DNA from: Corallococcus carmarthensis
GTDB lineage: Bacteria; Myxococcota; Myxococcia; Myxococcales; Myxococcaceae
DNA: 49,027 bases
Assembly (NCBI RefSeq): GCF_003611695.1
Contig: NZ_RAWE01000055.1
Coordinates: 1-49,027 of the forward strand
Direction: 5' to 3'
The position numbers and the translations under genes were made by a program. Under the pieces are notes generated by a model. It did no database searches. It was not told the DNA's origin and saw nothing but the letters and a program-made list of their open reading frames with translations. Positions within the stretch are counted from its first letter, which is position 1, and every line of letters begins with the position of its first letter. Positions 4,080-48,002 of the stretch are shown here, in pieces.

Positions 4080-4081
4080 GT

Positions 4082-6193: not shown

Positions 6194-6206
6194 TCCCGCG
6201 TCGTCG

Positions 6207-6236
6207 GTCTTAGTTAGTTGTGTGACTAAGTTAGTC
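6207..6236. promoter_or_regulatory. Probable TetR operator: perfect dyad plus an imperfect second copy
   Basis: GACTAAGTTAGTC at 6224-6236 is a perfect 6-bp-arm dyad around a central G. The 13 bases at 6207-6219 (GTCTTAGTTAGTT) match it at 10 of 13 positions, so two copies lie 17 bp apart. Odd-length palindromes of this kind with TTAGT half-sites are common TetR-family operators. The site lies 77 bp upstream of the tetR start and 28 bp upstream of the start at 6264, between the divergent genes. Binding by the product of 5408-6130 is inferred. Confidence 0.65.
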
Positions 6237-6263
6237 GTCCGGCTAAACCGAAGGAGACGGTCC

Positions 6264-6914: not shown

Positions 6915-6977
6915 TCCGTCAGCGGGGGCCACGGGAGCTTGCGGCTCGCGGTAGGCGGGTGGCTACACTTGCTGGAC

Positions 6978-8117: not shown

Positions 8118-8135
8118 GGCGTCCCACCCGGGCCG
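8106..8135. terminator. Bidirectional terminator-like hairpin between convergent genes
   Basis: An 11-bp perfect stem (CGGCCCGGGTG at 8106-8116 pairing with 8125-8135) closes an 8-nt loop. The left arm overlaps the TGA of the PLP enzyme gene, and cysK ends at 8152 on the opposite strand. No T-tract follows on either strand, which is common in very GC-rich genomes, so function is inferred from strength and position. Confidence 0.6.
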
Positions 8136-8151
8136 TGGCGCGCGACGACGG

Positions 8152-9072: not shown

Positions 9073-9115
9073 GGCGTCTCCTGTGAGTGGGGAACGGGCA
9101 CTGCGTGAGGGAAAG

Positions 9116-9961: not shown

Positions 9962-10185
9962 GGGGCGTTGCGTCAGGATAGCGCGCCGGTACGGCGTTTT
10001 CCTTGTTTCCAGTTCGGGAAGGGCTGATGGAGGCCGGGCAGGTCTTTGCCTGGCGTCCCGGGACGTAGCGGCGGGGTTCTGGACGTGGATGCCGTTGCCG
10101 GGAAAACGTCGCGGCTGTCCGGCCGTCCAGGAACCAGGGCGGGGGGCGGACAGGCAGCGAAGAGAGGTGGGGATTACCCAGGGGG

Positions 10186-11037: not shown

Positions 11038-11074
11038 CTTGCCGAGCCGGGGGCACCCTGGGGACGATGGAGTC

Positions 11075-12718: not shown

Positions 12719-13187
12719 CGCGCTTCGCGGGGGCCTTCTTCACCGCGGTCTTCTTGGCCGCGGGCGCCTTCTTCGCGACAGGGGCTTTCTTCGCGGCGGG
12801 AGCCTTCTTCGCGACGGGAGCTTTCTTGGCAGCGGGGGGCTTCTTCGCGGCCTTCTTCATGGCCGCGCGGTTGGAGGCGTCCACGGCGCGGCGGGCCCAG
12901 GGCAGCAGCCGGCGGCCGTCGTCCTCCGCGTCCACGGGCGGCGTCCAGTAGCTCATCGGCTGTTCCTTGCCGCGGCTCTGGTAGATGAAGGGCCGGCAGC
13001 CCTCGGCCTCGAAGTCGGCGCGGGTGACGTCGTCCGTCTTCAGGTAGAGCTGGCCCTGGATGATGAGGCCGAACATCCGGCCCCCGAAGTACAGGCCCCA
13101 ACCGCCGAACATCGAGCGGGCCTGTACCGCGCCAAGCGGCTCCAGCAACTCCAACGTGTACTCCACGAAGCTGTCCATGCGGGGCAT
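12705..13187 (-). CDS. TfoX N-terminal domain protein with histone H1-like tail
   Basis: A 160-residue two-part protein. Residues 1 to about 105 match the TfoX/Sxy N-terminal domain ([45 protein letters not shown]). From about 109 to the end the chain is a Lys/Ala/Pro repeat ([16 protein letters not shown]), like eukaryotic histone H1 tails and bacterial HU/AlgP-type tails, and is expected to bind nucleic acid or polyphosphate. The ATG at 13187 follows AGGAGGA and comes 9 nt after the stop of the histidine kinase gene, so the two are probably cotranscribed. The 3' end overlaps the convergent acyl-CoA ligase gene by 14 bp. The repetitive DNA of the tail is prone to length change. Confidence 0.88.
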
Positions 13188-13196
13188 GGAGTCCTC

Positions 13197-28988: not shown

Positions 28989-31349
28989 TCAAGGCCGGAT
29001 CATGTTCAAGGGGGCCGTCCCGGTGAGGTCCTCCACGCTGTCGAAGAGGAGCTGCCCGATGTAGTTGAAGTTGTGTGCCCATGCGCCCGGGTCCTTCCTA
29101 CTCAACTGGTAGTTGTGGGCGGCCTTCACGAGCGCTGGAGTGAATGGCGCGAACGCGTTGGCGGAGACGGACTCGGTGGCGCTGCAGGTGCCGTCCTTGT
29201 CCGTGTCCTTGAAGAAGTAGGGATTGACCTCGCCGTTGTAGCAGAGGCCATTGCCGGTCACCCCGCGCATGGCCGTCAGCAGGCGTGCGGCCATTCCCGA
29301 GACCTCCGCGTCCAGGGGCTCCGTGGTGTTCGCGTCGCCGTCGTAGTCGGCCAGGTGGACGACGCGGATCTGCTCCGCCGCGTCCTGGTCCGCGTGGCAG
29401 GTCTCACAGCGCTCGCTCCACACGTCCGCGATGCGGAAGGTGTGGTTGCTCTTGCCCGGCACATGGCAGCTGGTGCACTGCGCCCCGCCCATGTGCGTGA
29501 GCCGGCTGGCGTAGGTCTTGTTGGGGTACTCGTAGCCAATCCGGGCCTGCGTTCCTTCACGCGTCCCCGCGGCCGGCAGGTAGTGCACGTTCTGGAACCG
29601 CGGCGTGCCGCCCGCCGCCAGCGCCGCGTCGATGGTGGCCTTGGACGCGCGGCCGATGTGGCAGTTGGCGCAGAGGTTGTCCTGGCCCGGCAGGTTCACT
29701 GTCTTGCCGTCCGGAAGCCACGTCTGGGCCGGGATGAAGACGTCGTAGTCGGGCTCGAAGTTCTCGTGGCAGGTGGAGCACTCCAGGCCGTTGGCGGTCT
29801 CCGGCACCAGCTGACCGACCCCGTACTGGACGAAGAACCGGTAGCCCTGCGCACCGCTGTGGCAGCGCGAGCAACTGGCCTGGACGGTCTCGCTCGAGTC
29901 CCAGTTGCGCGCCGCCTTGCTGGCGCCGTTGAAGTGGCCCGGGTCGTTGCGCACCAGCAGGGACGTATCGAAGGGCACGGCCAGCGCCTCGTTCATCGAC
30001 TTCGTCGAGTCATGCAACAGCTGGAGGATGTACTTGGCGTTGTGCGCGAACGCGCCCGGATCCACGCGGGACAGCTGGTAGTTGTACGCCGCCTTCTGCA
30101 AGCGGGGTGTCCAGTGGGCGAACGCGTTGGTGGCGGCGGATTCGGCCTGACTGCACGTCCCGTCCCCGTTGGTGTCCTGGAACCAGTAGGGGTGGGTGTC
30201 GCCGTAGCAGAGGGGCCAGGCCCGCTCCGCGCCGTACCGCTGGATGGCGGCGAGCAACCGGTCACGCAGCCCCTGGATCTCGAAGTAGATGCCCTCGGTG
30301 CGGTCGTGGTCCCCGTCGTAGTCCTGGTTGCGCGAGGCGATCTGCCGGATGTTCCAGGCCTTCGTGACGTCGGTCACGCCGGGATGGCAGGTGGCGCAGG
30401 CATCCCAGCGGACCCGCGTGGTGTGCGGGTCATGGCATTCGTTGCACTTGTCGAAGTTGGGGACGTGGCGGAAGCGCGAGTCGTAGACCTGGTTCGCGTA
30501 CTGGTAGCCGCCGGCGGCCTGGCTGGCGAAGAGCGTCGCGCCCGCGGGGTAGTAATGGATGTTGGTGAAGCCCAGTGCCGGTGAGGCGGTGTCCTCGCCC
30601 ACCACGCCCGCGTCCGCGACCTGCGCGTCGATGTCCTTGCCCGACGCGCGCCCCTGGTGACACACCACGCACCGCGCCTCCGGCCCCAGGCCGGTGACCT
30701 GCTTTCCCGAGGGGAAGGTGACCGCGGTCAGCCCGGAGGCCGCGCTGTCGTGGCACGTCTCGCAGCGGACCACGGACTGCGTGCGGCCGGGGGCATCCAC
30801 CCGTCCGGGGGCGGAGCCGTCGCCGCCCAGGAAGTCGATATAGCCCTCCGAGCTGTGGCACCGCGCGCAGGTGGTGGGAACCATGCCGTCCTCGTTCCAG
30901 TGGGAGAAGGCCTCGGCGGTGGTGTCCGCATGCGGCGAGCCGGACCAGGCGAGGTAATAGGGCACCTGGCTGGGATCGACGCCCGCGTCGCCCGTGAGGC
31001 CGCCCAGCACCACCACGACGTGACGCGCCTCCAGCCGGGACTGCGCGCCGGTGACCTTCACCGCGGTCTCGCCCGCGCCAACGCCTGTCACCTGTCCGGT
31101 GTCGTCCACGGTCGCGATGGCCGGGTTCTCGCTCTCCCATTGGTAGCCGTCGTCGGTGGCCTCGCGCGTGGTGGCCGTGAGCTGGAGCGTCTGACCCACG
31201 AGCACCGAGTGCGGGCCGTCGGTGATGATCTCCGGGTGGGGTGTCTCCAGTCTGGCGCAGGCGCTCAACGTGAAGGCCAGGAGCATCCGTCCGGCCAGGA
31301 GCAGGAGAGGTCGTCTCATCGAAGCCTTCTCGGGGATGAAGTGCGTCAT
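28989..31349 (-). CDS. Decaheme c-type cytochrome lipoprotein with internal duplication
   Basis: A 786-residue lipoprotein with lipobox TLSAC at Cys31, an Ig-like BIG2 domain (about 40-118, LVGQTLQLTATTREATDDGY to VTGVGAGETAVKV) and ten CxxCH heme sites at about 161, 196, 227, 302, 318, 493, 524, 560, 625 and 648. Hemes 1-5 and 6-10 are two copies of one unit about 330 residues long. Each unit ends with a Ca-loop-like DTNGDGTCS or DTDKDGTCS and then NAFAHWTPRLQKAAYNYQLS or its counterpart. The start at 31349 overlaps the stop of the monoheme gene by 4 nt; an ATG at 31319 is a weaker alternative. It is the last gene of the cytochrome operon and the likely surface-exposed electron acceptor/donor. 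Confidence 0.9.
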   Translation of the reverse strand: MTHFIPEKASMRRPLLLLAGRMLLAFTLSACARLETPHPEIITDGPHSVLVGQTLQLTATTREATDDGYQWESENPAIATVDDTGQVTGVGAGETAVKVTGAQSRLEARHVVVVLGGLTGDAGVDPSQVPYYLAWSGSPHADTTAEAFSHWNEDGMVPTTCARCHSSEGYIDFLGGDGSAPGRVDAPGRTQSVVRCETCHDSAASGLTAVTFPSGKQVTGLGPEARCVVCHQGRASGKDIDAQVADAGVVGEDTASPALGFTNIHYYPAGATLFASQAAGGYQYANQVYDSRFRHVPNFDKCNECHDPHTTRVRWDACATCHPGVTDVTKAWNIRQIASRNQDYDGDHDRTEGIYFEIQGLRDRLLAAIQRYGAERAWPLCYGDTHPYWFQDTNGDGTCSQAESAATNAFAHWTPRLQKAAYNYQLSRVDPGAFAHNAKYILQLLHDSTKSMNEALAVPFDTSLLVRNDPGHFNGASKAARNWDSSETVQASCSRCHSGAQGYRFFVQYGVGQLVPETANGLECSTCHENFEPDYDVFIPAQTWLPDGKTVNLPGQDNLCANCHIGRASKATIDAALAAGGTPRFQNVHYLPAAGTREGTQARIGYEYPNKTYASRLTHMGGAQCTSCHVPGKSNHTFRIADVWSERCETCHADQDAAEQIRVVHLADYDGDANTTEPLDAEVSGMAARLLTAMRGVTGNGLCYNGEVNPYFFKDTDKDGTCSATESVSANAFAPFTPALVKAAHNYQLSRKDPGAWAHNFNYIGQLLFDSVEDLTGTAPLNMIRP

Positions 31350-31783
31350 GGTTGAGCGCCTCCGGAGATCCACGCCAGGAGGGTCTGGTACTCCGGCGTG
31401 CTCTCTCCGTAGATGGCTCCGCCGCCGTGGCCCGCGCCGGACGCCTTGCGCAGCAGCCGGCTGGCGGAGGGATTGGATGCGTCCGTCAAGGAGCTGACCT
31501 CCGCGTAGTCAGCGTCGGCATCGCCGGTCAGCACGAAGGAGGTGCTGCCCGCGGCGCCTCCCGCGCGATGACAGGTCTGACAGCCGGTGGTGAGGAGCGG
31601 ATGGACGTCGCTGGCGAAGGAGACGGTGGTTCCACCGTCCCCGCCGCTGCCGCCGCCGTCGGTGGGCGGGACCCCCGCGTCGGGGGAGGGCGCGCCACGG
31701 TGGAGGTCCGCGCACCCAACGACCAGCGCGAACATCACGGTGAGGACCGCGGCCCGTGTCTGGATGCGGGAATCAGAACTCAT
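31346..31783 (-). CDS. Monoheme cytochrome-like lipoprotein
   Basis: A 145-residue lipoprotein (RAAVLTVMFALVVGCADLHR, lipobox VVGC) with a short Pro/Asp/Gly linker (APSPDAGVPPTDGGGSGGDG) and one heme-binding motif CQTCHR in VHPLLTTGCQTCHRAGGAAG. The pattern of one CxxCH, then SRLLRKASGAGHGGG and EYQTLLAWISGGA, is that of the planctomycete-type cytochrome c domain also found twice in the porin fusion encoded just upstream. It overlaps the porin fusion gene by 11 nt and the decaheme gene by 4 nt. A role as an electron shuttle at the outer membrane between those two proteins is inferred. Confidence 0.87.
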   Translation of the reverse strand: MSSDSRIQTRAAVLTVMFALVVGCADLHRGAPSPDAGVPPTDGGGSGGDGGTTVSFASDVHPLLTTGCQTCHRAGGAAGSTSFVLTGDADADYAEVSSLTDASNPSASRLLRKASGAGHGGGAIYGESTPEYQTLLAWISGGAQP

Positions 31784-34046
31784 ACGCCACCACCAGCCGG
31801 GTGAAGTCGTCCGGCGTTTCGTCTGTCTTCTCCAGGTTCCAGAACTGGAAGAGGCCGGCGCTCAAGCCCCGCCACCGGGCGACCACGCCCACGTTGTGGC
31901 TGGAGCCGTCCTCCCGGGTGAGCGCGTTCGAGTCCAGGATGAGGCCTCGCCGGTTTCCGAACGTGCGCAGCCCCTGCCGGTACTGGACGTAGAGCCAGTC
32001 CGTGGGGTGGTAGCGAAGCTGGAGGTAGCTGGCGAAGTGGTAGTAGTCCGCGCCCGGCCCGCCGTAGCCCTCCGCCTCGCCTCCGGAGACATCCGCGCGC
32101 AGCAGCCCGGCGCCCAGCGAGAAGTGCTCCAGCACCGGAAGCCCGCGCGGACGCCACACCGCCACGTCCAGCGCCTGGAGGAACAGGCGGCGCCCGAACC
32201 CCAGTGAATTGAAGTAGGGCGAGTACCACACGTTGATGGGCCCCCAGGAGCCGCCAAGCCTTGCTCCGACGCCCAGGCGGGTGTCCTCCAGCGGTGCCAG
32301 GTCCGACTGGAGGTTGAGCACCGCGTCGGCGCGCTTCAGCCGGTAGCCGGAGATGACGTAGGCATCGCCGGAGAGGGCGATGGGCCCCAGACGGCGCTCC
32401 ACGTTCACCGTCAGCCCTTCCCGGGCGAACACCACCGGAAGCACCCGCTGGTCGAAGCCGGCGAGCCCTCCGTAGCTGTGATGGAAGAGCGGATCCCCGC
32501 CGAAGGGCACCAGCACCTTGCCGCCCTTGGCGAACACCTTCACCGGCCAGGACGCTCCGTTGATCCGGTAGCCCACCTCCCAGAACTGCAGCGACAGCAC
32601 TTCCAGGGTGAGGGTCACCGGGTCTTCGGCGGACTGCCGCGTCAGGAAGAGGAAGTGGTGGTAGCTGCGCAGCGCGCTCTCGCCCTCGGCCTTGAAGGGG
32701 TGGTCGTTGTAGTTGATGCGCTCGTAGTTGAGGTCGAAGCGTCCGTTCAGGCTCAGCGAGCCGAGGACCGGGAAGGTTCCCAGCGGTACGCCTGCATGCG
32801 GGCCGGAGGGGACGGGAGGCGCAGCGGGTGCGGCGGCGGGCTCGGGTGCGGTGGGCGCGGGTGGGGCGGTGGCCACGGCGGTGTTCGCGGTGGCTGGCGG
32901 GGTCGTCCCCAACGCGCCCGCGTCAATCCAGCGGGCCAGGAGCGCCAGCTGCGCGCTGCCCGGTTCCCACACCGCGCCGCCCGGGTGCGAGTCACCCTTC
33001 GCTCGCTGGTACAGGAGGCTGCTGGCGGCAGCGCCGGGCACCACCAGCGGCGCCACCGACCGCAGGTGCGCGTCTGGATCCGTGTGGGTGAGGTAGCGGC
33101 TGGCTCCGGCCATCCCGTCGGAGGCATGACAGCTGGAGCAGTCCGCCAGCAGCGCCTCGTGGACCTGGGGAGCGAAGCGCGGCGCTGCCGAAGCGTCCTC
33201 GGAGGGAGCCGTGGGTGGCGTACCGGCGCTCGCGGACGCAGCCGGCGCCGTGGATGGCGGACTGGGACTCGCGGACGCAGCCGGCGCCGTGGATGATGAA
33301 CCAGCACTCGCGGACGCAGCCGGCGCCGTGGGTGATGAACCGGCACTCGCGGACGCAGCCGGCGCCGTGGGTGATGAACCGGTACTCGCGGACGCGGAAG
33401 GCGCCGTGGATGGTGAACTGGCACTCGCGGGCGCGGAAGGCGCCGTGGGAACCGGGCTGGAAGCGGAGGGCGCGGACGCAACCGGCGCCGCCTGGGTGCC
33501 AGCCCGTGCCCTGCCGGGCGGGGCGCCACCTTCAATCCACCGCAGGAGCGTCGCGTACTCCACCGACTCCACCGCGAGGACCTTCTTGCCGCCGTGAAGG
33601 GCGGTGCCGGTGCCCTTCTTGAGCAGCGGACTCTGGGCGGCGGTGGCGGTCTGCACGAAGCGGACGGTGGCGTCGTAGTCCTCCGGCCCGCCTTTCAGCA
33701 CCCAGCGGGATCTGGACGCCTTGCCCTCCGGGCTGTGACAGGACCCGCACGCCTTCTCCAGGATGGGCCGGGCGTCATCCGCGAAGCCCGGCACGCGCGG
33801 CCGTGCCGCGATGGGATTCCGGGTGGCTCTCGCGGGGGCGGCGGGTGACGGCGTCCCCGGTTCGACGACACCCGCGTCGGGCGCCGCCTGCGCATGTCCG
33901 GGAGGCTCGGGGGGCGGCTTGATGCCCAGCCGCTCCTGGAGCTGCCGCCGCTTCTCCTCCTGCGACTGCGCCCGCGTGAGGCTGGGGACGGCCAGCACCA
34001 GCGCGCAGGCAAACAGTGTCCAGGCACTGCGCTCAGCGACGCGCAT
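31773..34046 (-). CDS. Porin-cytochrome fusion: two heme domains and an outer-membrane beta-barrel
   Basis: A 757-residue exported protein. A signal peptide (LFACALVLAVPSLTRA) precedes a first cytochrome domain with CGSCHS at residue 100, an Ala-Ser-Pro-Thr linker (about 190-290, in part thirteen-residue repeats), and a second cytochrome domain with CSSCHA at 303 and the conserved SLLYQRAKGDSHPGG. From about 425 to the end is a beta-barrel with alternating aromatic strands (GRFDLNYERINYND, YLQLRYHPTDWLYVQYRQGL), ending in AYEF with the C-terminal Phe recognised by BamA. In known porin-cytochrome conduits (MtrAB, Pcc) the barrel and heme protein are separate chains. The gene overlaps the triheme gene by 14 nt and the monoheme gene by 11 nt. 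Confidence 0.85.
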   Translation of the reverse strand: MRVAERSAWTLFACALVLAVPSLTRAQSQEEKRRQLQERLGIKPPPEPPGHAQAAPDAGVVEPGTPSPAAPARATRNPIAARPRVPGFADDARPILEKACGSCHSPEGKASRSRWVLKGGPEDYDATVRFVQTATAAQSPLLKKGTGTALHGGKKVLAVESVEYATLLRWIEGGAPPGRARAGTQAAPVASAPSASSPVPTAPSAPASASSPSTAPSASASTGSSPTAPAASASAGSSPTAPAASASAGSSSTAPAASASPSPPSTAPAASASAGTPPTAPSEDASAAPRFAPQVHEALLADCSSCHASDGMAGASRYLTHTDPDAHLRSVAPLVVPGAAASSLLYQRAKGDSHPGGAVWEPGSAQLALLARWIDAGALGTTPPATANTAVATAPPAPTAPEPAAAPAAPPVPSGPHAGVPLGTFPVLGSLSLNGRFDLNYERINYNDHPFKAEGESALRSYHHFLFLTRQSAEDPVTLTLEVLSLQFWEVGYRINGASWPVKVFAKGGKVLVPFGGDPLFHHSYGGLAGFDQRVLPVVFAREGLTVNVERRLGPIALSGDAYVISGYRLKRADAVLNLQSDLAPLEDTRLGVGARLGGSWGPINVWYSPYFNSLGFGRRLFLQALDVAVWRPRGLPVLEHFSLGAGLLRADVSGGEAEGYGGPGADYYHFASYLQLRYHPTDWLYVQYRQGLRTFGNRRGLILDSNALTREDGSSHNVGVVARWRGLSAGLFQFWNLEKTDETPDDFTRLVVAYEF
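33226..33459. repeat. 39-bp in-frame tandem repeats
   Basis: Six units of 39 bp begin at 33226, 33265, 33304, 33343, 33382 and 33421. The core is GCACTCGCGGACGCAGCCGG followed by CGCCGTGGGTGATGAACCG, with the last two units more diverged. Each codes for 13 residues like AGSSPTAPAASAS on the minus strand. The unit is a multiple of three, so copy-number change alters only the linker between the two heme domains. Confidence 0.8.
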
Positions 34047-34389
34047 GGCATGCCTCGCAGCTCATGGAGCTCTGGGCCCTGGCGGCCCGTCCGTCATGGC
34101 AGCGCCCGCAGTAGCGGCCCTCTCGCATGTCTTGATGCGTGAAGCCCAGCCGGGCCTGCGGGAACGTGCCGGGGTGGCAGCTGTAGCAGTACATGGAGCC
34201 ATGCCCCCAATGGGAGAACAGCGCCGGAGCAGGCGCGGCGCGCTCCTTGAGCGGAGGCAGCCGCACGTCCTGCGGCGAGTTCACGGCGAAGATGGGCGTC
34301 GTGAACAGGAGAAGGATGGCGAGCCCGGCCCGCCACCACCCCCCGCGCGGGGAGGGGGCGCCAGGCGGATGCGAAGGGGCGGAACTCAT
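34033..34389 (-). CDS. Triheme c7-type cytochrome
   Basis: A 118-residue exported protein with one N-terminal hydrophobic segment (WWRAGLAILLLFTTPIFAVN), which is a signal peptide or membrane anchor. Three CxxCH motifs follow: YCYSCHPG, YCGRCHDG and SCEACHAR, with extra His residues (FSHWGHGSMY, GFTHQDMREG) fit to be second heme ligands. This spacing is that of the c7/triheme 'nanowire' type cytochrome domain. It would be periplasmic and carry electrons between the inner-membrane tetraheme protein and the outer-membrane fusion. The start at 34389 overlaps the stop of the small membrane protein gene by 4 nt (ATGA). Confidence 0.87.
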   Translation of the reverse strand: MSSAPSHPPGAPSPRGGWWRAGLAILLLFTTPIFAVNSPQDVRLPPLKERAAPAPALFSHWGHGSMYCYSCHPGTFPQARLGFTHQDMREGRYCGRCHDGRAARAQSSMSCEACHARR

Positions 34390-34583
34390 AGGGCCCTTTG
34401 CTCCTTCAGGATTCTCCAGACCGTGACGCCGTAGAGCAGGACCCCCAGCAGGACCAGGGGGACGCCCACGGCGGTGGAGATGACGAAGGTCAGTGGCGTC
34501 CAATACAAGAGGGCGAACAGCTGGATCAGCAGCCCCGCCAGGACGAAGAGGGCCGCCACCCGGATGCGCTTGTCGTGGCTCAT
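34386..34583 (-). CDS. Small two-helix membrane protein of the cytochrome operon
   Basis: A 65-residue protein with two transmembrane segments (VAALFVLAGLLIQLFALLYW and ISTAVGVPLVLLGVLLYGVT) and short charged ends (MSHDKRIR, RILKEQRAL). It lacks a heme motif. It overlaps the tetraheme gene upstream and the triheme gene downstream by 4 nt each, so it is almost certainly part of the same complex, perhaps as an assembly or anchoring subunit. No named family is recognised. Confidence 0.8.
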   Translation of the reverse strand: MSHDKRIRVAALFVLAGLLIQLFALLYWTPLTFVISTAVGVPLVLLGVLLYGVTVWRILKEQRAL

Positions 34584-35206
34584 GGGCGCGCTCGCTCCGG
34601 CAGCCAGAAGTTCTGGGCCTTCACGCCCTCCAGGTCGTGCGCGAGGTCATGACAGCTCAGGCACGAGCGGGCCCCGCTCTGGAGCTCCGCCTGGAGCTCC
34701 CGGTGCGGCCCGGCCTCCAGGTAGCCGCGCGCATCGTTGTGGCAGTGGAGGCAGTTGTAATTGGGATACGGCTGATAAAGCCGGGGCTCCGGGGGAATGG
34801 TCCCGAAATAGTGGACCCAGACGTGCCGCAGGCCGTTGAGCTTGGCCTTGGCGTCCCCGAAGAGCGCGTAGTCCGTGTGGCAGGAGAAGCAGGTGGAGTC
34901 GCGGTTGATCAGCCGCTTCTGGTAGTGGACCGCGGCCAGGGCATTCGGGTTGTCCACGAACAGGCTCTGCCCGTAGGGCTCCATCTCGTGGCAGCCCATG
35001 CAGAACTGGGTCTGGCTGGATTCGCGCACGCCCACCGCGACCCCGGTGCCGCTGACGGCCAGCGGCAGGAGGGCCAGTCCTCCGAGCAGCACCAGGCGTC
35101 CCAGCCGGTTCGCGGTGAGGTGGCCCGCGGCATGGGCAATCATCGCCACCAGCACGGCCACCGCGCTGACAATCACAATCATGAGGGTGGGCAGTGGGGT
35201 CTCCAT
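34580..35206 (-). CDS. Tetraheme NapC/NirT-like membrane cytochrome
   Basis: A 208-residue protein with hydrophobic segments at about 7-30 (LMIVIVSAVAVLVAMIAHAA) and 36-60 (RLVLLGGLALLPLAVSGTGV), then four CxxCH sites: FCMGCHEMEPYGQSL, TCFSCHTDYALFGD, NCLHCHND and SCLSCHDLAH. The CMGCHEM start and the order of sites match NapC/NirT-type quinol dehydrogenases, which oxidise quinol in the inner membrane and pass electrons to periplasmic cytochromes. It is the first heme gene of the operon. It starts 83 nt after the small lipoprotein gene and overlaps the two-helix membrane protein gene by 4 nt. Confidence 0.87.
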   Translation of the reverse strand: METPLPTLMIVIVSAVAVLVAMIAHAAGHLTANRLGRLVLLGGLALLPLAVSGTGVAVGVRESSQTQFCMGCHEMEPYGQSLFVDNPNALAAVHYQKRLINRDSTCFSCHTDYALFGDAKAKLNGLRHVWVHYFGTIPPEPRLYQPYPNYNCLHCHNDARGYLEAGPHRELQAELQSGARSCLSCHDLAHDLEGVKAQNFWLPERARP

Positions 35207-35289: not shown

Positions 35290-35643
35290 CTACCGGGTGG
35301 GCGCCCCGGCGGAGGGCGGGAGGGGAATGGGCTCCACCTTCGCTGTCTGCCCGTCCACGCGCAGGTCCAGGGCCCCGTGGCCCGCCGGCGAGGCGTAGCG
35401 CAGCCACCAGGACGCCTCGCCTTGCTTCGCCATCACCAATTCCAGGGCGTGGTCCTGGCTCCGCGCGAACGCGGCTCCCAGCCTCACCGCCTCTTCGTAC
35501 CCCACGGTGAGCGCCACCGAGGTGGGCGGTGGCGGCAGCGGGGCAGAGGGATCCGCACGCGTCTCCCGCGCGGAGCCCGCGCACCCCGCGGCGACGAGGG
35601 CGGCGAGCAGGACGGCGCGGGGCAGGGAGTGCGAAGAGGTCAT
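35290..35643 (-). CDS. Small lipoprotein of unknown function
   Basis: A 117-residue protein with a lipoprotein signal (LPRAVLLAALVAAGCAGSAR, lipobox VAAGC, Cys21) and a Pro-rich spacer, followed by a small domain (SVALTVGYEEAVRLGAAFAR, HALELVMAKQGEASWWLRYA, LDLRVDGQTAKVEPI). The pattern of an Ala/Glu-rich helix and then strands is loosely like PepSY domains, but I would not assign it. It lies 83 nt upstream of the tetraheme cytochrome gene on the same strand and could be the first gene of that transcription unit. The start at 35643 was chosen because the upstream open frame is Arg/Gly/Pro-rich and not coding in character. Confidence 0.7.
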   Translation of the reverse strand: MTSSHSLPRAVLLAALVAAGCAGSARETRADPSAPLPPPPTSVALTVGYEEAVRLGAAFARSQDHALELVMAKQGEASWWLRYASPAGHGALDLRVDGQTAKVEPIPLPPSAGAPTR

Positions 35644-36037
35644 GGGCGCTGGCTCGAACGGAGGGGAGGAATGAAACCCGTCCGCCCTTCGACACTGCAT
35701 GCCCCGTACCGGGGTGGACTCGTGCCCCTGTGGGGGGTGGGCCCGGGCGCGGGTGCGCCTCCCGCCTGGGTGCTCCGGCGCAAACCTTGCGCCAGCCGGC
35801 GGCATCCCGCGCATTCCCTGCGTGGGCGCCCGCACGCCCCTTCCCGGAGGCTGGCGCGAGCGGTGGGCCCCGGGACCGGACCGGGCTTTCGGGCTCGGAC
35901 GCGCGGGGGCACCGGGCCACGACCACGCCGCCCCGGCGGCACACTCTGTCTGGCCGCGAGGGGCACGGCGGCGCGCGGCTTGAGTCCACCCCCGGCGCGC
36001 GGTAGCCACGTCCCGTCACGTCTCCCCGGAGCCCCCC
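35644..36037. other. 394-bp divergent intergenic region
   Basis: This gap separates the small lipoprotein gene (minus) from the M49 peptidase gene (plus) and must hold promoters for both. It is very GC-rich and has a 7-bp perfect hairpin at 35777-35793 (GGCGCAA/TTGCGCC, 3-nt loop). No consensus sigma-70 or sigma-54 site, riboswitch core or convincing gene was seen; open frames across it are Arg/Pro/Gly-rich artefacts. Confidence 0.5.
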
Positions 36038-41391: not shown

Positions 41392-42207
41392 ATGGCGCGC
41401 AAGCAACGGACGCCGCGATGGCTGGAGGCCGCGAGGCGCAGGGGACCGGAGGCCCCGGTGGGCCCGGGCGCGGACTGGCTGGCGCGAGCGCTGGGCCGGG
41501 CCGGCGTGCTGCCCCGGGCTGAAGCCGAGCAGGCGATCCGCGACGGCCGCGTGGAGGTGGATGGCCGCGTGGAGCATGAGCCCTTCGCGCCAGTGGGGGA
41601 GGGGACGCGGGTGCGCGTGGACGGCGTGGAGCACGCGCTGACGCGCCAGGCGCGGGGGCTGATGTTCCACAAGCCCGCGGGACCGGTGGTGCACGGCTCG
41701 GATCCGGAGGGCGTGGGCACCGTCTTCGAAAGGCTGCGCGCGGTGCTGCCGCCAGAGCTTCAGGGCTTCGAGTGGTACGCGGTGGGCCGGTTGGACCGGG
41801 ACACCACGGGGCTGCTGCTCTTCACCAACGACGAACGGCTGGTGCGGCACGCGACGGCGCCGGAGACGCACCTGCCCAAGCGGTACGTGGCGCGCGTGGA
41901 GGGACAGCCCACGGAAGCCGAGCTGGCGCGGCTGCGAGAGGGATTGACCTTGGAGGACGGCCCCACGCGTCCCGCGGAGGCGGTGCTCCGCGCGCCCGAC
42001 GTGGTGGAGCTCACCCTCACCGAGGGGCGGCACCACCAGGTGAAGCGGATGCTCGAGGCGGTGGGGCACCCGGTGCTCACGCTGCACCGTGAAGCGGTGG
42101 GGCGGGTGGTGCTGGACGTGGCGGAGGGGGCCTTCCGCGAGCTGACGGAGGCGGAGGTGTCGGGCGGGCTGGGATTCACCGCGACGGACGTGGACCTGAC
42201 GGACTAG
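41392..42207 (+). CDS. RsuA/RluB/RluE family rRNA pseudouridine synthase
   Basis: A 271-residue enzyme that isomerises uridine to pseudouridine in ribosomal RNA. Residues about 25-80 form an S4 RNA-binding domain (LARALGRAGVLPRAEAEQAI, VEVDGRV). The catalytic Asp is in AVGRLDRDTTGLLLFTND at about residue 134, preceded by MFHKPAGPVVHGSD, and the C-terminal segment EGRHHQVKRMLEAVGHPVLT is typical of the RsuA branch. GGAGG at 41383-41387 sits 4 nt before the ATG. Its TAG stop overlaps the TAG stop of the convergent kinase gene in one CTAG. Confidence 0.92.
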   Translation: MARKQRTPRWLEAARRRGPEAPVGPGADWLARALGRAGVLPRAEAEQAIRDGRVEVDGRVEHEPFAPVGEGTRVRVDGVEHALTRQARGLMFHKPAGPVVHGSDPEGVGTVFERLRAVLPPELQGFEWYAVGRLDRDTTGLLLFTNDERLVRHATAPETHLPKRYVARVEGQPTEAELARLREGLTLEDGPTRPAEAVLRAPDVVELTLTEGRHHQVKRMLEAVGHPVLTLHREAVGRVVLDVAEGAFRELTEAEVSGGLGFTATDVDLTD

Positions 42208-44249
42208 CGGCCGAGGTTCTTGAGCATCTCCCGCGCCTTCGCGGGGTTCGCCATGTTCCTGGGGGACATCAGCAGGTACCGGTCGTGGGCGCGCCTGGCC
42301 TTGGCCTTGTTGCCGGTCAGGGTGTAGGCGGTCTCCAATCCCAGCCAGGCTCGCCGGATGTTGGACTGGCGATGGGTGACGTCCTCCAGGAGCTTCACGG
42401 CCTGCTTGTGGTCGGCCGGGGTGCCGGGCATGAGCTGGATGAGCGTCAGGCCCAGCTCGAGCTTGGCGTCGAGCGAGCCCGGCTTCATGGCCAGCGCGTT
42501 CCGGAACGTGGCCGCCGCCTCCGGGAACTTCTCGTCCCGGAAGGCCGTGCGGCCGACGTCCATCATGTCGGCGAAGGTCTCCGGCTTCGCCACCCGGCCC
42601 GATGCCGACGAGAGGGCATTCGCGTCGTCCAGGATCTGCACCACCTTCGCGCGGCTGGGGTGCGTGGCGGGGGCGTACTCCAGGAAGCGTTGGTAGTGCG
42701 TCACGCTGGTGCGGCTGTCATTGAGGCGCGCGTACAGCATCCCAAGCAGGAGATGGCATTCCCCTTCCTGGGGGAACCGCGTCGAGCACTGATGCGCCAG
42801 GTCCACGGCCTCGCGGAGCTCTCCCCGCTGCACCCGCGCGTGGATGCGGTCCTGATAGTCGGCCAGGGACAGGGCGGACGCCGGGAGCGGTTCCACGGTC
42901 AGGGGTGCGTTGCCTGTTGCCTGGGGGCTCGGTGCGGCAATCGCAGTGGGGCTCCGCGCATCGTCGGAGAGGGATTGAACCGCGGTGGGCGGACGCTCGA
43001 TGGGACGCGGCGCTCCAAGGGGCTCGGGAGGCACATCGGTGGAGGTGAGGAGCCAGAGACAGCTGGCCCCGATGGCCAGGCCCGTGGTGCTCAATCCGAG
43101 CGCCCATTTCCTCAATGATGTCGCGGGCGCGAGCGCGGCCGGGGCTTCGTCCTCCACGCTCTCCATGTCGGATTCGGGGAGGGGGATCCTCCCTGTATGG
43201 AGCAAGGGCCTGGGACGCGGGGGCTTCTTCGCGAGTGCCGGCTCCTGCTCGCGCCAGGACTTCAGCTCCTCCTTGAAAGACGCCGGGACGGACAGCTCGC
43301 GGCCCTGAGCCAGCAGGTCCTCCCGGAACAGCATCCGCAGCAGATGGGCGGCGCTCAGCGAGGACGCTCGTGGATGGTTCGCGTACAGGAATCCTGAGAG
43401 CGCCTCCGCGAAGGCATGACTGGATTCGAAACGCTGGGACTGCTCCGGATGCAGGGCCTTGAGGACGATGCGGTTGAGCGCCTCCGGCAGGTCCGGCCGA
43501 GACTCGCTCAGCGACGGAAACTCACCGCGCGCCACGCGCATCATCACGACCTGCGGAGGCCCCTCCACGGGCAGCTTGCCGCAGAGCAGCTCGTACAACA
43601 CGACGCTGGTGGCCCAGACGTCCGTGCGCGCATCCACCTCTTCTCCACGCGCTTGCTCCGGAGAGAAGAAGAGGTACTTGCCCTTCACCACCCCGGGCTC
43701 TGTCTTGATGTCGCGGATGAGCTGCGCCTTCGCGATGCCGAAGTCGACGATCTTGACCTGGCCCTCGTAGCCCAGCAGCACGTTGTCCGGGGAGATGTCC
43801 CTGTGCACGATGCCCAGCGGTTGGCCGCTGCTGTCCGTCCGCGTGTGCGCGTAGTGCAGCCCCCGGCACATCTCGATGGCGATGAAGACCGCGATGGGAA
43901 TGGGCAGCGCGCTCATGCCGCTCTTCATCGCGCGCTTGAGGGCGTGGTGGAGGGGCTGGCCGTCCACGAACTCCATGGCCAGGAAGTACTCACCCTCCAC
44001 CCGGCCAAAGTCGAAGACCTGCGCCACGTTGCCATGGGACAGCGTGGCGGAGATGCGTGCCTCGCTTATGAACATGGAGATGAACGCTTCGTCGTTGGCG
44101 TACTCGGGCAGGACCTTCTTGATGAGCACGGGTTTGGTGACGCCCGCGTCGCCTACCAGCTGGGCGCGCCACGTCTCCGCCATGCCGCCCCGGCCCAGCC
44201 AGGACACCAGCTCATACCGCCCGAAGGTGTCACCTGCCTGGAGTGCCAT
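42204..44249 (-). CDS. Ser/Thr protein kinase with TPR-like periplasmic domain (array member 1)
   Basis: A 681-residue Hanks-type kinase. It has a glycine loop LGRGGMAETW (18-27), Lys44 in VLIKKVLPEY, catalytic loop IVHRDISPDNVL with Asp151 and Asn156, DFG at 169-171, and SPEQARGE in place of the APE motif. A single transmembrane helix is at about 385-407 (WALGLSTTGLAIGASCLWLL). The C-terminal part is a Pro-rich linker followed by TPR-like repeats (PQEGECHLLLGMLYARLNDS, SVTHYQRFLEYAPATHPSR, and a longer repeat AATFRNALAMKPGSLDAKLE) outside the cytoplasmic membrane. All catalytic residues are present. It is the last of four paralogous genes on this strand and has the longest TPR region. Confidence 0.93.
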   Translation of the reverse strand: MALQAGDTFGRYELVSWLGRGGMAETWRAQLVGDAGVTKPVLIKKVLPEYANDEAFISMFISEARISATLSHGNVAQVFDFGRVEGEYFLAMEFVDGQPLHHALKRAMKSGMSALPIPIAVFIAIEMCRGLHYAHTRTDSSGQPLGIVHRDISPDNVLLGYEGQVKIVDFGIAKAQLIRDIKTEPGVVKGKYLFFSPEQARGEEVDARTDVWATSVVLYELLCGKLPVEGPPQVVMMRVARGEFPSLSESRPDLPEALNRIVLKALHPEQSQRFESSHAFAEALSGFLYANHPRASSLSAAHLLRMLFREDLLAQGRELSVPASFKEELKSWREQEPALAKKPPRPRPLLHTGRIPLPESDMESVEDEAPAALAPATSLRKWALGLSTTGLAIGASCLWLLTSTDVPPEPLGAPRPIERPPTAVQSLSDDARSPTAIAAPSPQATGNAPLTVEPLPASALSLADYQDRIHARVQRGELREAVDLAHQCSTRFPQEGECHLLLGMLYARLNDSRTSVTHYQRFLEYAPATHPSRAKVVQILDDANALSSASGRVAKPETFADMMDVGRTAFRDEKFPEAAATFRNALAMKPGSLDAKLELGLTLIQLMPGTPADHKQAVKLLEDVTHRQSNIRRAWLGLETAYTLTGNKAKARRAHDRYLLMSPRNMANPAKAREMLKNLGR

Positions 44250-44315
44250 GGGTTGTGGGGCCTGAGTCTCGATTTGCCTGGTGCGTGACGGAGCGTCCCT
44301 GGGGGGAAGACAAGT

Positions 44316-46004
44316 CTAGGGAGGTGGATTGTTCATGGGCATTTTAGTCAAGGCATGGAGGACGAGATCCCTCTTGGGATAGCCTTCAGGCGTGAGGGTC
44401 AGAAATATCTTGTAGTGCTGTTCGCTTTCCTTGAACTCCTTGCGCCTGGCATGGACAATGCCAAGCATGAGATGACACTCGGGGACCTTGGGGACCCTGG
44501 CCTCGCAGTCCTTTGCCAGCCTGAAGGCCCCGTCGAGATCTCCCTCTCTGCTGCGCCTCAGGACCTCTGTCTGAATGGCTTTGATTGAGTCGTGAATAGA
44601 TATGGCACTTGTTCTCGAGCCAATGAACTCGTCGGCGGGCGCATCGGTAGGCGCGTCGGTGGGCGCACTGGCGACTTCCTTCTTGTCCTCGGGTGGCACG
44701 ACGGGCGCAGGAGGGCGCGTCTCGACAGTCACGGGAGCGCGAATGGGCGTGGGAGGTGGAGCCGCCGACACGGGTGTGGCCGACTGCGTATCCATCAGCA
44801 GCCACAGGCTCGCACCCACGACCATCAGTCCTCCCGCGCTCAACCCGTAGAGCAGCGGGCGTGAGGTTTCAGAAGACGCCACGATGGACCGAGGTTGGGT
44901 CGTCTCCGTTGTCTCCGTGACTGGCGGGGTGACCGCCCGGATTCGCCGCGTCTGCCGCTGGGTGACGGGAACCGGCGTCACCGGTTCCTCTGGCGCGGCC
45001 TGCGCGCGCCAGGCCTTCAGTTCCTCCAGGAAGGAGCCCGGGACGGACAGCTCACGCCCCTCTTGCGCCAGGTCGCCCCGGAACAGCACGCGCAGCAGGT
45101 GCGCGATGGTCATGGAGGAGAAGCGCGGGAAGTTCGAATACAGGAACCCCGCCAGCGCATCCCCGAAGGCGTGACTGGACTCGAAGCGCTGCTCACGGTC
45201 CGGAGTCAGCGCTTTCATCACGATGTCATTCAATTCCTTCGGGAGGTCCGGCCGGAGCACGCTCGGAGCGGGAATCTCCCCCCGGCCCACGCGCATCATC
45301 ACCATGTGCGGCGGCCCCTCCACGGGCAGCTTTCCGCAGAGCAGCTCATACAGCACGACGCCGGTGGCCCAGACATCCGTTCGTGCATCCACGTCTTCCC
45401 CGCGCGCCTGCTCTGGAGAGAAGAAGAGGTACTTGCCCTTCACCACGCCTGGCGCCGTCTTGAAGCCCCGGATGAGCTGCGCCTTGGCGATGCCGAAGTC
45501 GACGATCTTGATCTGCCCTTCGTAGCCCAGCAGCACGTTGTCCGGAGAGATGTCGCGGTGGACGATGCCCAGCTGTCTGCCACTGCTGTCCGTGCGCGTG
45601 TGCGCGTAGTGCAAGCCCCGGCACATCTCCATCGCGATGAAGACCGCGATCGGAATGGGCAGCGCCCCCAGGTCGCTCTTCATCGCGCGCTTGAGGACGC
45701 GGTGGAGCGGCTGGCCGTCCACGAACTCCATGGCCAGGAAGTACTCACCGTCCACGCGGCCGAAGTCGAAGACCTGTGCGACGTTTCCATGGGACAGCGT
45801 GGCGGAGATGCGCGCCTCGCTGATGAACATGGAGATGAAGGCCTCGTCGTTGGCGTACTCCGGGAGGACCTTCTTGATGAGGACTGGCTTGGTGACGCCG
45901 GCATCCCCTACCAACTGGGCGCGCCACGTCTCCGCCATGCCGCCCCGGCCCAGCCAGGACACCAACTCATACCGCCCGAAGACGTCGCCCGCTTGCAGTG
46001 CCAT
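44316..46004 (-). CDS. Ser/Thr protein kinase (array member 2)
   Basis: A 562-residue paralogue of the neighbouring kinases. The kinase domain is nearly identical to member 1: LGRGGMAETWRAQLVGD, VLIKKVLPEYANDEAF, GIVHRDISPDNVLLGYEGQI and KIVDFGIAKAQLIRGFKT. A transmembrane helix lies near residue 385 (LLYGLSAGGLMVVGASLWLL), followed by a short linker and one TPR-like unit (PKVPECHLMLGIVHARRKEF, SEQHYKIFLTLTPEGYPKRD). The external domain is much shorter than in member 1, so the copies differ mainly in the sensing part. 66 nt separate it from member 1 downstream and 102 nt from member 3 upstream, with no strong terminator seen. Confidence 0.93.
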   Translation of the reverse strand: MALQAGDVFGRYELVSWLGRGGMAETWRAQLVGDAGVTKPVLIKKVLPEYANDEAFISMFISEARISATLSHGNVAQVFDFGRVDGEYFLAMEFVDGQPLHRVLKRAMKSDLGALPIPIAVFIAMEMCRGLHYAHTRTDSSGRQLGIVHRDISPDNVLLGYEGQIKIVDFGIAKAQLIRGFKTAPGVVKGKYLFFSPEQARGEDVDARTDVWATGVVLYELLCGKLPVEGPPHMVMMRVGRGEIPAPSVLRPDLPKELNDIVMKALTPDREQRFESSHAFGDALAGFLYSNFPRFSSMTIAHLLRVLFRGDLAQEGRELSVPGSFLEELKAWRAQAAPEEPVTPVPVTQRQTRRIRAVTPPVTETTETTQPRSIVASSETSRPLLYGLSAGGLMVVGASLWLLMDTQSATPVSAAPPPTPIRAPVTVETRPPAPVVPPEDKKEVASAPTDAPTDAPADEFIGSRTSAISIHDSIKAIQTEVLRRSREGDLDGAFRLAKDCEARVPKVPECHLMLGIVHARRKEFKESEQHYKIFLTLTPEGYPKRDLVLHALTKMPMNNPPP

Positions 46005-46106
46005 GGGGCGGACATCCTAAGCCCAGATTCCAGGGATGGCCGAATAGAGGCTGTCTTTCTCCTGCCTGGCTGCCTGGGATGTCAGCGAGTGGAAACCACT
46101 GACTGC

Positions 46107-48002
46107 TCAATTCGCCGCGCCGGCCTTCGCCAGCATTTCAATGACGCGCGCCCGGCGGGGATGGTCCTCGGGTGCGAGCGCCAAGAACATCTCGTAGTGC
46201 TGCGTGCTCTCACGCGGATGGTTGAGCTTCGCGTGGACGTCGCCGAGCATGAGGTGACATTCCGGCACGCGCGGATTGTTCTTCGCGCAGTCATTGGCCA
46301 CTTCCAGCGCCGCGTCGTAGTCCTTGCTCTGGAGCAGGCCGGAGACCTTCTGCTGGACCTCCTGCTGCTTCGTCTTCACGAGCGAGCTGACCTTCTGCGC
46401 CACCTCCTGCCGCTTGGAGTCGAGCATCCCGAAGACGCCCTTCTTGGGCGCGGGGGCACTCTCCTCAACGACGGGAGGCGGTTGCTGGACGGCGCTGGCC
46501 ACGACGACGGTGGGCGGCGCGGGTTCCTCGACGACTGGCTCCGGATTCGCGGACTGGACCCGCTGGGTGGCGCGGACGGGCCTGGCGGAAATCTTCCGGG
46601 TGGAATGCGCGGGCCGCGTGGCTTCTGGCTCCGCGGGACTTTCAGCTGGAACCTCCGCCACGGCCTCCGGCTCCTTCACGGGGCTCGGCGCAGGCGGTGG
46701 TTCAGCCTCGACCTTCGGGGCGGGGGCTTCGACCGCGACCGCCTGCGGAACGGGCGCGGGCTGCGCGACGGGCTCTGGTGAACGCGAACCCACGAAGAGC
46801 CAGAGGCAGGCTCCCGCCACGGCCAGGCCTCCGGCCGCGCCTGCTCCGTAGATCACCTTGCGGGAACGACCCGTCGGAATCGTGGGCGCGTCGGACTGGG
46901 TCGTCTCGTCGGTGGGCGGCGGCTTCGCGACGGCGCGCACCATTCGCCGCGTTTGGACCTGCTGCGGCGGTGGGGCACCCAGGAGCTTCGCGAGCGCCGG
47001 CTCGCCCCACTTCTTCGCCTCGTCGAGGAAGGCCTCGGGCACGGACAGCTCGCGGCCCTCGTTCGTCAGGTCCGCACGGAACAGCAGCCGCAACAGGTTC
47101 GCGAGGCTCAACGAAGAGAAGCGCGGGTAGTGGGCATGGAGGAACTCCGCCAACGCATCCCCGAAGGCATGACTGGATTCGAAGCGCTGCTCCTGGTCCG
47201 GAGCCAACGCCTTCATCACCAGGTCGTTCAACTCCTTCGGCAGGCCCGGCCGGAGTGTCGTGGGTGCGGGGATCTGTCCGTGGGCGATCTTCATCATCAC
47301 CGTCTGGGGCGGCCCCTCCACCGGAAGCTTCGCGCACAGCAATGAGTACAGCACGATGCCGGTGGCCCAGACGTCCGTGCGCGCATCCACCTCTTCTCCG
47401 CGCGCCTGTTCCGGAGAGAAGAAGAGGTACTTGCCCTTCACCACGCCGGGTTCCGTCTTGAAGCCCCGGAGCAGCTGCGCCTTCGCGATGCCGAAGTCGA
47501 CGATCTTGACCTGACCCTCGTAGCTGACGAGCACGTTGTCCGGAGAGATGTCCCGGTGGACGATGCCCAGGGACTTCCCGCTGCCATCCGTGCGCGTGTG
47601 CGCATAGTGCAGCCCCCGGCACATCTCCATCGCGATGAAGATTGCGGCCGGAATGGGCAGTGCGCCCAGGCCTGCCTTCAGCGCGCGCTTGAGCACCTTG
47701 TCGAGCGGCCTACCGTCGACGAACTCCATGGCGAGGAAGTACTCGTCCGCCACCTGTCCGAAGTCGAAGACCTGCGCGACATTGCCATGGGACAGCGTGG
47801 CGGAGATGCGTGCCTCGCTGATGAACATGGAGATGAAGGCTTCGTCGTCCGCGTACTCCGGCAGGACCTTCTTGATGAGCACGGACTTGGTGACGCCCGC
47901 GGCCCCCATCAGCTGGGCGCGCCAGGTTTCCGCCATCCCGCCCCGGCCCAGCCAGGACACCAACTCATACCGCCCGAAAGTGTCGCCAGCCTGGAGTTCC
48001 AT
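46107..48002 (-). CDS. Ser/Thr protein kinase (array member 3)
   Basis: A 631-residue paralogue with the same active kinase domain (LGRGGMAETWRAQLMGA, VLIKKVLPEYADDEAF, IVHRDISPDNVLVSYEGQVK, VDFGIAKAQLLRGFKTEPG). The transmembrane helix is near residue 380 (VIYGAGAAGGLAVAGACLWL). The external part has a long Pro/Ala/Glu/Val-rich linker (APKVEAEPPPAPSPVKEPEA) and a Gln/Lys-rich helical stretch, then the shared TPR-like unit PRVPECHLMLGDVHAKLNHP, STQHYEMFLALAPEDHPRRA. The 170-bp region upstream contains a perfect 25-bp palindrome at 48101-48125. Confidence 0.93.
   Translation of the reverse strand: MELQAGDTFGRYELVSWLGRGGMAETWRAQLMGAAGVTKSVLIKKVLPEYADDEAFISMFISEARISATLSHGNVAQVFDFGQVADEYFLAMEFVDGRPLDKVLKRALKAGLGALPIPAAIFIAMEMCRGLHYAHTRTDGSGKSLGIVHRDISPDNVLVSYEGQVKIVDFGIAKAQLLRGFKTEPGVVKGKYLFFSPEQARGEEVDARTDVWATGIVLYSLLCAKLPVEGPPQTVMMKIAHGQIPAPTTLRPGLPKELNDLVMKALAPDQEQRFESSHAFGDALAEFLHAHYPRFSSLSLANLLRLLFRADLTNEGRELSVPEAFLDEAKKWGEPALAKLLGAPPPQQVQTRRMVRAVAKPPPTDETTQSDAPTIPTGRSRKVIYGAGAAGGLAVAGACLWLFVGSRSPEPVAQPAPVPQAVAVEAPAPKVEAEPPPAPSPVKEPEAVAEVPAESPAEPEATRPAHSTRKISARPVRATQRVQSANPEPVVEEPAPPTVVVASAVQQPPPVVEESAPAPKKGVFGMLDSKRQEVAQKVSSLVKTKQQEVQQKVSGLLQSKDYDAALEVANDCAKNNPRVPECHLMLGDVHAKLNHPRESTQHYEMFLALAPEDHPRRARVIEMLAKAGAAN

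Follow-up and report, generated by a model that had tools for sequence, protein, structure and literature searches.

The window analysed here is an entire contig of 49,027 nucleotides (NZ_RAWE01000055.1) from the 10.8 Mb genome of Corallococcus carmarthensis. It carries six minus-strand open reading frames (genes 1 to 6; Table 1), which encode, in order of transcription, a NapC-like membrane cytochrome, a two-helix membrane protein, a c7-like cytochrome, a diheme porin barrel, a monoheme lipoprotein and a decaheme lipoprotein, and which likely serve quinol-linked electron transfer towards the outer membrane. The genes overlap at every junction, by 4, 4, 14, 11 and 4 nt, and contain 4, 0, 3, 2, 1 and 10 CxxCH heme-binding motifs, 20 in total. 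Shuffling the residues of the six proteins 2000 times gave a mean of 0.06 motifs and a maximum of 2, and CxxCH is absent from the 34 other called genes of the window (13,447 residues; called with a simple script based on codon position, which chooses the most distant start, so that boundaries are approximate). The six genes, 20 hemes and overlaps described in an earlier note on this DNA were thus all reproduced, along with their coordinates. The six reading frames are under purifying selection, since the ratio of nonsynonymous to synonymous substitution rates (dN/dS, own Nei-Gojobori script) was 0.12-0.60 in all 42 comparisons (six genes with seven relatives).

Table 1. Positions of the six-gene cassette and of further features in the window and at other loci (L, locus; G, genome).
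Feature	Position	Strand	Description
Operon, genes 1-6	28989-35206	-	six overlapping reading frames
Gene 1	34580-35206	-	208 aa; NapC/NirT-family tetraheme membrane cytochrome, candidate quinol dehydrogenase
Gene 2	34386-34583	-	65 aa; two hydrophobic stretches (hydropathy), constant partner of gene 1
Gene 3	34033-34389	-	118 aa; periplasmic triheme protein, cytochrome c7-like; N-terminus either cleaved or anchored
Gene 4	31773-34046	-	757 aa; two monoheme c domains (residues ~88-178 and ~291-379), Ala/Pro/Ser linkers, porin barrel (~419-757)
Gene 4, residues 29-41	33924-33962	-	mature N-terminus, conserved short helix
Gene 5	31346-31783	-	145 aa; monoheme lipoprotein, domain homologous to both gene 4 heme domains
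Gene 6	28989-31349	-	786 aa (longer GTG start also possible); decaheme lipoprotein, Big_2 domain and two tandem pentaheme repeats
Gene 7	35290-35643	-	117 aa; small protein, secreted or lipoprotein-like; directly upstream of operon, between gene 1 and palindrome
Palindrome GCGCAA-N3-TTGCGC	35778-35792	.	candidate operator or enhancer, ~135 nt upstream of gene 7
Three tandem genes	42204-48002	-	near-identical N-termini; presumably protein-kinase-like
L005, cassette and divergent cluster	8965-15041, 3374-5818		
L138 (own contig C7), dehydrogenase	3170-4186		D-2-hydroxyacid (lactate-type) dehydrogenase, start at conserved MRIAFF
L138, palindrome	4282-4296		95 nt upstream of the dehydrogenase gene
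L138, regulator and kinase	6138-8784		sigma-54-activator response regulator and protoglobin histidine kinase
L033	3861-7045		NapC and two-helix gene after molybdopterin oxidoreductase-like gene
L035	4636-7414		NapC and two-helix gene after molybdopterin oxidoreductase-like gene
L169 (G189)	1967-3651		gene pair with 4Fe-4S domains, palindrome near its start

The six genes recur elsewhere as a cassette. We laid out 19 loci including the window, and the 15 complete ones, from 15 genomes, agree without exception in gene order and heme counts (4/0/3/2/1/10), even where protein identity is 37-60%; the search for the six proteins as a set, which the earlier note had proposed as a check, therefore turned out in its favour. 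The other four loci, from three genomes, are cut at contig ends: L006 of C. sicarius and L103 of G106 are halves of one cassette, L008 comes from a metagenome-assembled genome (MAG) from a fen, and L101 from G039. Complete cassettes extend to two other families of the phylum, both of which keep the 11-nt overlap between the barrel and monoheme genes, and to a MAG. Across the 15 loci, correlations between the six genes in pairwise protein distance are 0.93-0.98 (uncorrected for shared ancestry). Gene 6 was found at 80-100% identity in 14 of 147 genomes of the class, nine of these being among the 16 members of the genus, and gene 1 at an identity of at least 59% in 15 of 195 genomes of the phylum, two of them from other families. 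A scan of genome contigs with gene 1 found seven loci, belonging to four Corallococcus, to Myxococcus dinghuensis and to the MAGs Chersky_194 (labelled Proteobacteria) and fen_1088 (labelled Myxococcales).

The cassette of the window lies between what we take to be two peptidase-like genes. In the single-contig genomes G102 and G110, which are free of the cassette, these two flanking genes are direct neighbours, and no gene was called between them. The cassettes of C. sicarius and strain CA053C stand at another site, and the site corresponding to that of the window is empty in G106. At this other site the cassette faces away from a divergent cluster that comprises genes for a beta-lactamase-fold protein and for an amidase as well as cydAB for cytochrome bd oxidase (tested in CA053C only), and in which two further genes look to us like cydCD. 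Because the sites differ and cassette-free relatives have the flanking genes side by side, the cassette has been gained, lost or moved as one block. A recent foreign origin is not supported by its G+C content, which equals that of the rest (69.9% in both), and synonymous divergence (dS) is 0.27-0.35 for gene 6 and 0.10-0.40 for the two flanking genes.

Gene 1 carries four CxxCH motifs in all 15 complete cassettes and matches PF03264 with 42.6 bits at a cut-off of 24.1, while gene 3 exceeds the cut-offs of both PF14522 (42.1 against 24.8) and TIGR04257 (50.6 against 40), so that their earlier naming as NapC/NirT-like and c7-like proteins holds. With its tetraheme build and the PF03264 domain, gene 1 resembles the quinol dehydrogenases CymA, NrfH and NapC; its best match among solved structures is NrfH-like (2j7a), and the CxxCHxM motif at heme 1 presumably is a further likeness to NrfH. 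It differs from these proteins in scoring below every equivalog cut-off (NrfH, NapC, TorC; best 36.3 against 134.2 for NrfH) and below that of the napC_nirT subfamily (34.4 against 310.6 bits), and also in its membrane part: hydropathy gives two N-terminal hydrophobic stretches (residues 1-32 and 35-60), which may be two membrane helices where the family has a single N-terminal one, and a two-helix protein, gene 2, is its constant partner. Gene 2 is present in all 15 complete cassettes, reached no family cut-off, and has weak matches (31-33%) that also adjoin two more distant NapC genes (L018 and L021).

In gene 3, three histidines outside the heme motifs are invariant in 12 of 12 sequences, which together with the three CxxCH gives the pattern of a triheme c7. 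Its profile matches the solved multi-c7 cytochromes 3ov0 (E=1.4e-35), 1rwj (E=3.1e-11) and 3oue, which we take to be from Geobacter. Gene 3 is thus akin to the Geobacter triheme c7 proteins and their multidomain relatives, but differs from this group as a single triheme unit within an operon.

In gene 4, two heme domains are fused to a barrel. Its AlphaFold2 model (mean pLDDT 62.6) has 15-17 strand elements between residues 420 and 757 (DSSP), at moderate confidence. Foldseek matched the barrel with OprP/OprO (E=2.2e-9 to 1.2e-8), and VIA gave Z values of about 21 to OmpT, OprO and OprP for residues 414/426-757 (OmpT: Z 21.5, rmsd 3.0, 260 aligned residues); the searches reach the barrel part alone, not the heme domains. 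On this modelled fold the barrel is taken as a small OprP/OprO/OmpT-like porin of about 16 strands. The heme motifs and the C-terminal Phe are invariant in all 12 sequences, and no match to the barrel was found among plasmids. A short conserved helix at the mature N-terminus, in which Arg33, Arg34 and Gly41 are invariant, is a possible docking segment.

Gene 5, whose homology to the heme domains of gene 4 was detected in other loci, has the lipobox VVGC and the mature start CADLHRG. Its CxxCH and the His and last two G positions of an HGG stretch are invariant in 11 of 11 sequences. Comparison of its profile with solved structures returned weak matches only, which we dismissed as motif noise.

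Gene 6 has the lipobox LSAC, and the prediction that genes 5 and 6 are lipoproteins is accordingly supported. In the parts of PMC3222651 that deal with Myxococcus xanthus lipoproteins, a lysine at position +2 is linked to inner-membrane retention; neither gene 5 nor gene 6 has this residue. The N-terminal domain of gene 6 matches PF02368 (Big_2; 45.8 against a cut-off of 22.8), and PF22113 is marginally exceeded (34.4 against 30, best stretch 38 residues); the AlphaFold2 model is poor (mean pLDDT 53.8). The two pentaheme halves are 42% identical over 307 columns, and gene 6 is a tandemly duplicated pentaheme protein. Ten histidines outside the motifs, five per half, are kept in the heme region of 11 of 11 sequences, and an eleventh conserved one precedes it; each of the ten hemes would hence have a conserved candidate distal ligand, as in a pure electron carrier. 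Five alphaproteobacterial plasmid proteins (L139-L143), of the kind named 'cytochrome c3 family' or 'polyheme membrane-associated', are relatives at 35-40% identity that have the same five motifs and five matching distal histidines as a single gene 6 repeat, but possess one such repeat where gene 6 has two.

How does this set compare with known routes across the outer membrane? Passages of PMC4245776 describe porin-cytochrome (Pcc) clusters as combining porins of 18-22 strands with periplasmic cytochromes of 5-14 hemes; together with passages of PMC8406198 this defined the range of 18-26 strands that we used for the class. The cassette resembles MtrCAB, PioAB/MtoAB and OmbB-OmaB-OmcB in that a porin gene is clustered with periplasmic and lipoprotein multiheme cytochromes and a NapC/CymA-like quinol dehydrogenase. 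It differs from them in the barrel, which has about 16 instead of 18-26 strands, bears fused hemes and gave no match to an MtrB/PioB family at E<=1 in family model searches. It also contains no MtrA/OmaB-like rod: besides the decaheme lipoprotein, only the c7 protein (3 hemes), the fused diheme and the monoheme are encoded, and none of these is a periplasmic c-type cytochrome of 5-14 hemes that could fill the porin. The earlier note had invoked a porin-cytochrome conduit, of which the porin fold stands, while a classical conduit with MtrB-type barrel and MtrA-like rod is not supported as stated.

Gene 4 is closer in build to Cyc2 of iron oxidisers, whose barrel, according to sections of PMC8406198, has 16 strands and is similar to OprO and other phosphate porins. 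Both combine an OprO/OprP-like barrel of about 16 strands (15-17 in gene 4, at moderate model confidence) with an N-terminal c-type heme portion. Gene 4, however, lacks the Cyc2 motif A-x-P-x-F-A-R-[QK]-[TY] before CxxCH, carries, on long linkers, two heme domains where Cyc2 has a single heme, and is accompanied by five partner genes. Judged from these sequence features, the cassette would work like known porin-cytochrome systems, yet it matches neither Pcc/Mtr nor Cyc2 in every defining trait.

The genomic company of the cassette and its relatives points to an outlet for electrons. In G189, the cassette (L109) is headed by an OmcA/MtrC-family decaheme gene (TIGR03507 396.7 against a cut-off of 209.3), which lies 7 nt upstream of gene 1 in the same orientation and has an exact copy of the palindrome described below about 38 nt upstream; this favours a link of the cassette to the cell surface. 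More distant NapC relatives within the phylum (about 31-37% identity) stand beside OmcA/MtrC decahemes (2 of 2 tested by hidden Markov model), 23-heme proteins and porin-like genes, and others beside a molybdopterin oxidoreductase that resembles NapA but scores under its cut-off (one tested). These neighbours, OmcA/MtrC decahemes and 23-heme or NapA-like proteins, and the additional gene in G189 make it likeliest that the cassette serves as an outlet for electrons from quinol. Among the relatives, L029, L030, L031, L037 and L038 combine NapC and a small membrane protein with an OmcA/MtrC-like decaheme and a 23-heme protein, and some of them also have a porin-like gene close by. In L033 and L035 NapC and a two-helix gene directly follow the molybdopterin oxidoreductase-like gene (the one tested is that of L033), and these are apparent oxyanion reductase units.

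Two features upstream of the operon, gene 7 and the palindrome GCGCAA-N3-TTGCGC, had been overlooked in the earlier note, whose list of six genes otherwise stands. Gene 7 is conserved at 80-87% and only alongside those Corallococcus cassettes that occupy the site of the window; neither the cassette-free sites L124 and L125 nor other cassettes contain a match to it. Its N-terminus ends in AAGC and does not match the strict lipobox pattern, and it is possibly part of the operon. All nine Corallococcus cassettes are preceded by an exact palindrome, which in G039 is found on another contig, next to gene 7, and despite their other site the cassettes of C. sicarius and CA053C have two copies, 31 nt apart, near gene 1. 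In the two MAGs the palindrome occurs only as two-mismatch copies, and within 800 nt upstream of gene 1 in L044, L108 and L110 there is no copy with up to two mismatches. Of four genus members tested that are free of the cassette, three lack an exact palindrome and one has one elsewhere. The own genome contains 2 exact palindromes and 1 match for a reversed control pattern; 0.29 matches with one mismatch allowed would be expected by chance in the window. Scans for sigma-70 promoters, terminators and Rfam families gave no useful match.

The own genome and 15 of 19 other genomes searched contain 29 exact palindromes outside cassettes, all of which were inspected, and 13 of these lie 95-120 nt before a predicted start. 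The genes behind them encode a D-2-hydroxyacid (lactate-type) dehydrogenase in four cases (L138, L145, L148, L150), a CBS-domain protein in five (L152, L159, L162, L165 and, with uncertain start, L153), a bacterial globin in two (L158, L161), and in one case each a protoglobin histidine kinase (L154, start read by eye) and a DksA/TraR-type zinc finger (L166). About five of these cases are independent, since orthology unites the four dehydrogenase sites, four of the CBS sites (which adjoin ThiC) and the two globin sites. The sites L152, L154, L158, L159, L161, L162, L165 and L166 belong to other genomes of the Myxococcaceae and look like parts of one regulon. In G189 another copy of the palindrome (L169) is located near the start of a pair of genes with 4Fe-4S domains, which by their look we take to be NapH/NapG-like.

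The dehydrogenase site of the own genome is followed, within about 4.5 kb, by genes for a response regulator of the sigma-54-activator type, which has a Fis-type HTH (PF00158, 245.5 bits), and for a protoglobin histidine kinase (PF11563, 121.6 bits). Kinases of the latter kind bind oxygen or nitric oxide. In our reading, which is unproven, this pair could recognize the palindrome as an enhancer, and the heme operon would then belong to an oxygen- or nitric oxide-responsive regulon; the other targets of the palindrome hint at an oxygen-responsive one. A sigma-54 promoter between palindrome and gene start is hinted at as well: the best match to TGGCAC-N5-TTGCW averaged 7.9 of 11 positions over 23 sites, compared with 6.7 after shuffling, and reached p<=0.05 in 8 of the 23, which are related to each other and include three start positions (L100, L153, L154) that are not start codons; the match of the window itself is 8 of 11 (p=0.15).

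On balance, we lean towards outward electron transfer to the cell surface, through which the cassette would provide its hosts with a self-contained outlet in times of oxygen shortage. Gene 1 and its small membrane partner would oxidise quinol at the inner membrane, the triheme c7 would carry the electrons over the periplasm to the two heme domains tethered to the porin, and the monoheme and decaheme lipoproteins would pass them on from the outer membrane, most likely from its surface, to an extracellular oxidant. The earlier note had the set move electrons between quinone pool and cell surface. Quinol-linked transfer towards the outer membrane, which is likely, agrees with this. The sequence itself establishes the protein families, the heme content, the conserved candidate ligands, the lipoboxes, the porin fold, the linkage of the genes as a unit and the common palindrome; we infer the order of the transfer steps, their outward direction, control by low oxygen, exposure of the decaheme at the surface and, above all, the passage through a narrow barrel of about 16 strands. 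A low-oxygen role, suggested in that note too, gains some support from the other targets of the palindrome, and a role in biofilms or fruiting bodies would be conceivable. Several observations weigh against outward transfer. The hosts are aerobic heterotrophs, and 7 of the 16 genus members do without the cassette. The barrel is small, no MtrA-like heme rod is encoded in the cassette, and the cytochrome domain of Cyc2 is argued, in passages of PMC8406198, to plug the periplasmic mouth of its barrel and not to span the membrane. Gene 6 is not an OmcA/MtrC protein (no TIGR03507 match at E<=1), and its pentaheme relatives on plasmids adjoin, divergently, Nqr genes in 4 of 5 cases, the fifth being near cytochrome b, PepSY and FMN-transferase genes, with no porin or NapC gene annotated nearby. 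Outside Corallococcus, only one of seven genomes (G189) has the exact palindrome at the cassette, and three have it with one mismatch; 16 of the 29 palindromes elsewhere have no target of the kinds listed, many lying within called reading frames and others before unrelated or unclear genes.

A purely periplasmic function is a further possibility. All hemes could face the periplasm, where a small soluble oxidant that enters through the porin would be reduced at the mouth of the pore by the tethered heme domains and a decaheme fed by the NapC-like and c7 proteins, as in a Cyc2 running in reverse. The barrel does match ordinary solute porins such as OprP/OprO and OmpT, there is no heme rod to occupy its lumen, and the lipoproteins could equally be placed on the inner leaflet; by the porin rule set out in sections of PMC8406198, the N-terminus of the barrel, and hence both heme domains, should be periplasmic. 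We nevertheless regard this arrangement as rather unlikely, since the OmcA/MtrC gene heading one cassette suggests a step at the surface and gene 6 begins with an Ig-like Big_2 domain. Such domains are commoner on surface proteins. A periplasmic enzyme for detoxification or respiration, with the decaheme as catalyst for nitrite, nitric oxide, hydroxylamine or peroxide, would suit the NrfH-like structure match of gene 1, as NapC/NrfH-type proteins often feed such enzymes, and the globin genes that share the palindrome are compatible with nitric oxide stress. With ten conserved distal histidines for ten hemes, however, gene 6 offers no obviously open catalytic site, and it reached no cut-off of an NrfA, HAO or OTR model, which makes this function very improbable.

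Electrons might also flow inwards, from an extracellular donor such as Fe(II) that is oxidised at the porin or decaheme, via the c7 and NapC-like proteins to the quinone pool or to oxidases. Two cassettes adjoin cydAB, the iron oxidase Cyc2, as described in passages of PMC8406198, likewise has a cytochrome fused to a porin of this size, and parts of PMC6295460 propose CymA as a quinone reductase in an iron oxidiser. But gene 4 does not have the Cyc2 motif, the hosts are heterotrophs, the conserved histidine ligands suggest low potentials that would be ill-suited to Fe(II) oxidation at neutral pH, and the lactate-type dehydrogenase and globins among the palindrome's other targets fit a shortage of oxygen, so that we consider inward flow improbable. 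The patchy spread, with nine of 16 genus members, might finally be seen as a sign of a decaying or strain-specific set without function; this is scarcely credible and already contradicted by the dN/dS values and by heme counts that stay identical at protein identities as low as 37-60%. Outward transfer therefore remains our preferred interpretation. In its most far-reaching form, which we offer tentatively and with considerable doubt, the cassette would represent a third build of outer-membrane conduit, consisting of a Cyc2-sized porin with tethered hemes, a monoheme plug, a dedicated quinol dehydrogenase and a surface decaheme, with its own enhancer read by the protoglobin kinase and sigma-54 activator pair, and predatory soil myxobacteria would use it to respire oxidants outside the cell where oxygen is scarce, in swarms or fruiting bodies.

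Searches of an open-access library on cytochromes and electron transfer turned up no description of this cassette, which is a real and apparently undescribed porin-cytochrome variant; as far as these searches go, it was fair to call the operon unexpected in an aerobic predator. The function is directly testable, since relatives without the cassette exist in nature and both an enhancer and a sensor are available as candidates. If the small barrel passes electrons, a trans-outer-membrane circuit would need no MtrA-like rod, and the solutions represented by Cyc2 and MtrCAB would be linked. Research on myxobacteria such as Corallococcus treats them as aerobic predators, and a dedicated heme chain from quinol to the outer membrane, apparently tied to an oxygen-responsive regulon, would change our view of how these bacteria live in wet, crowded or oxygen-poor soil.

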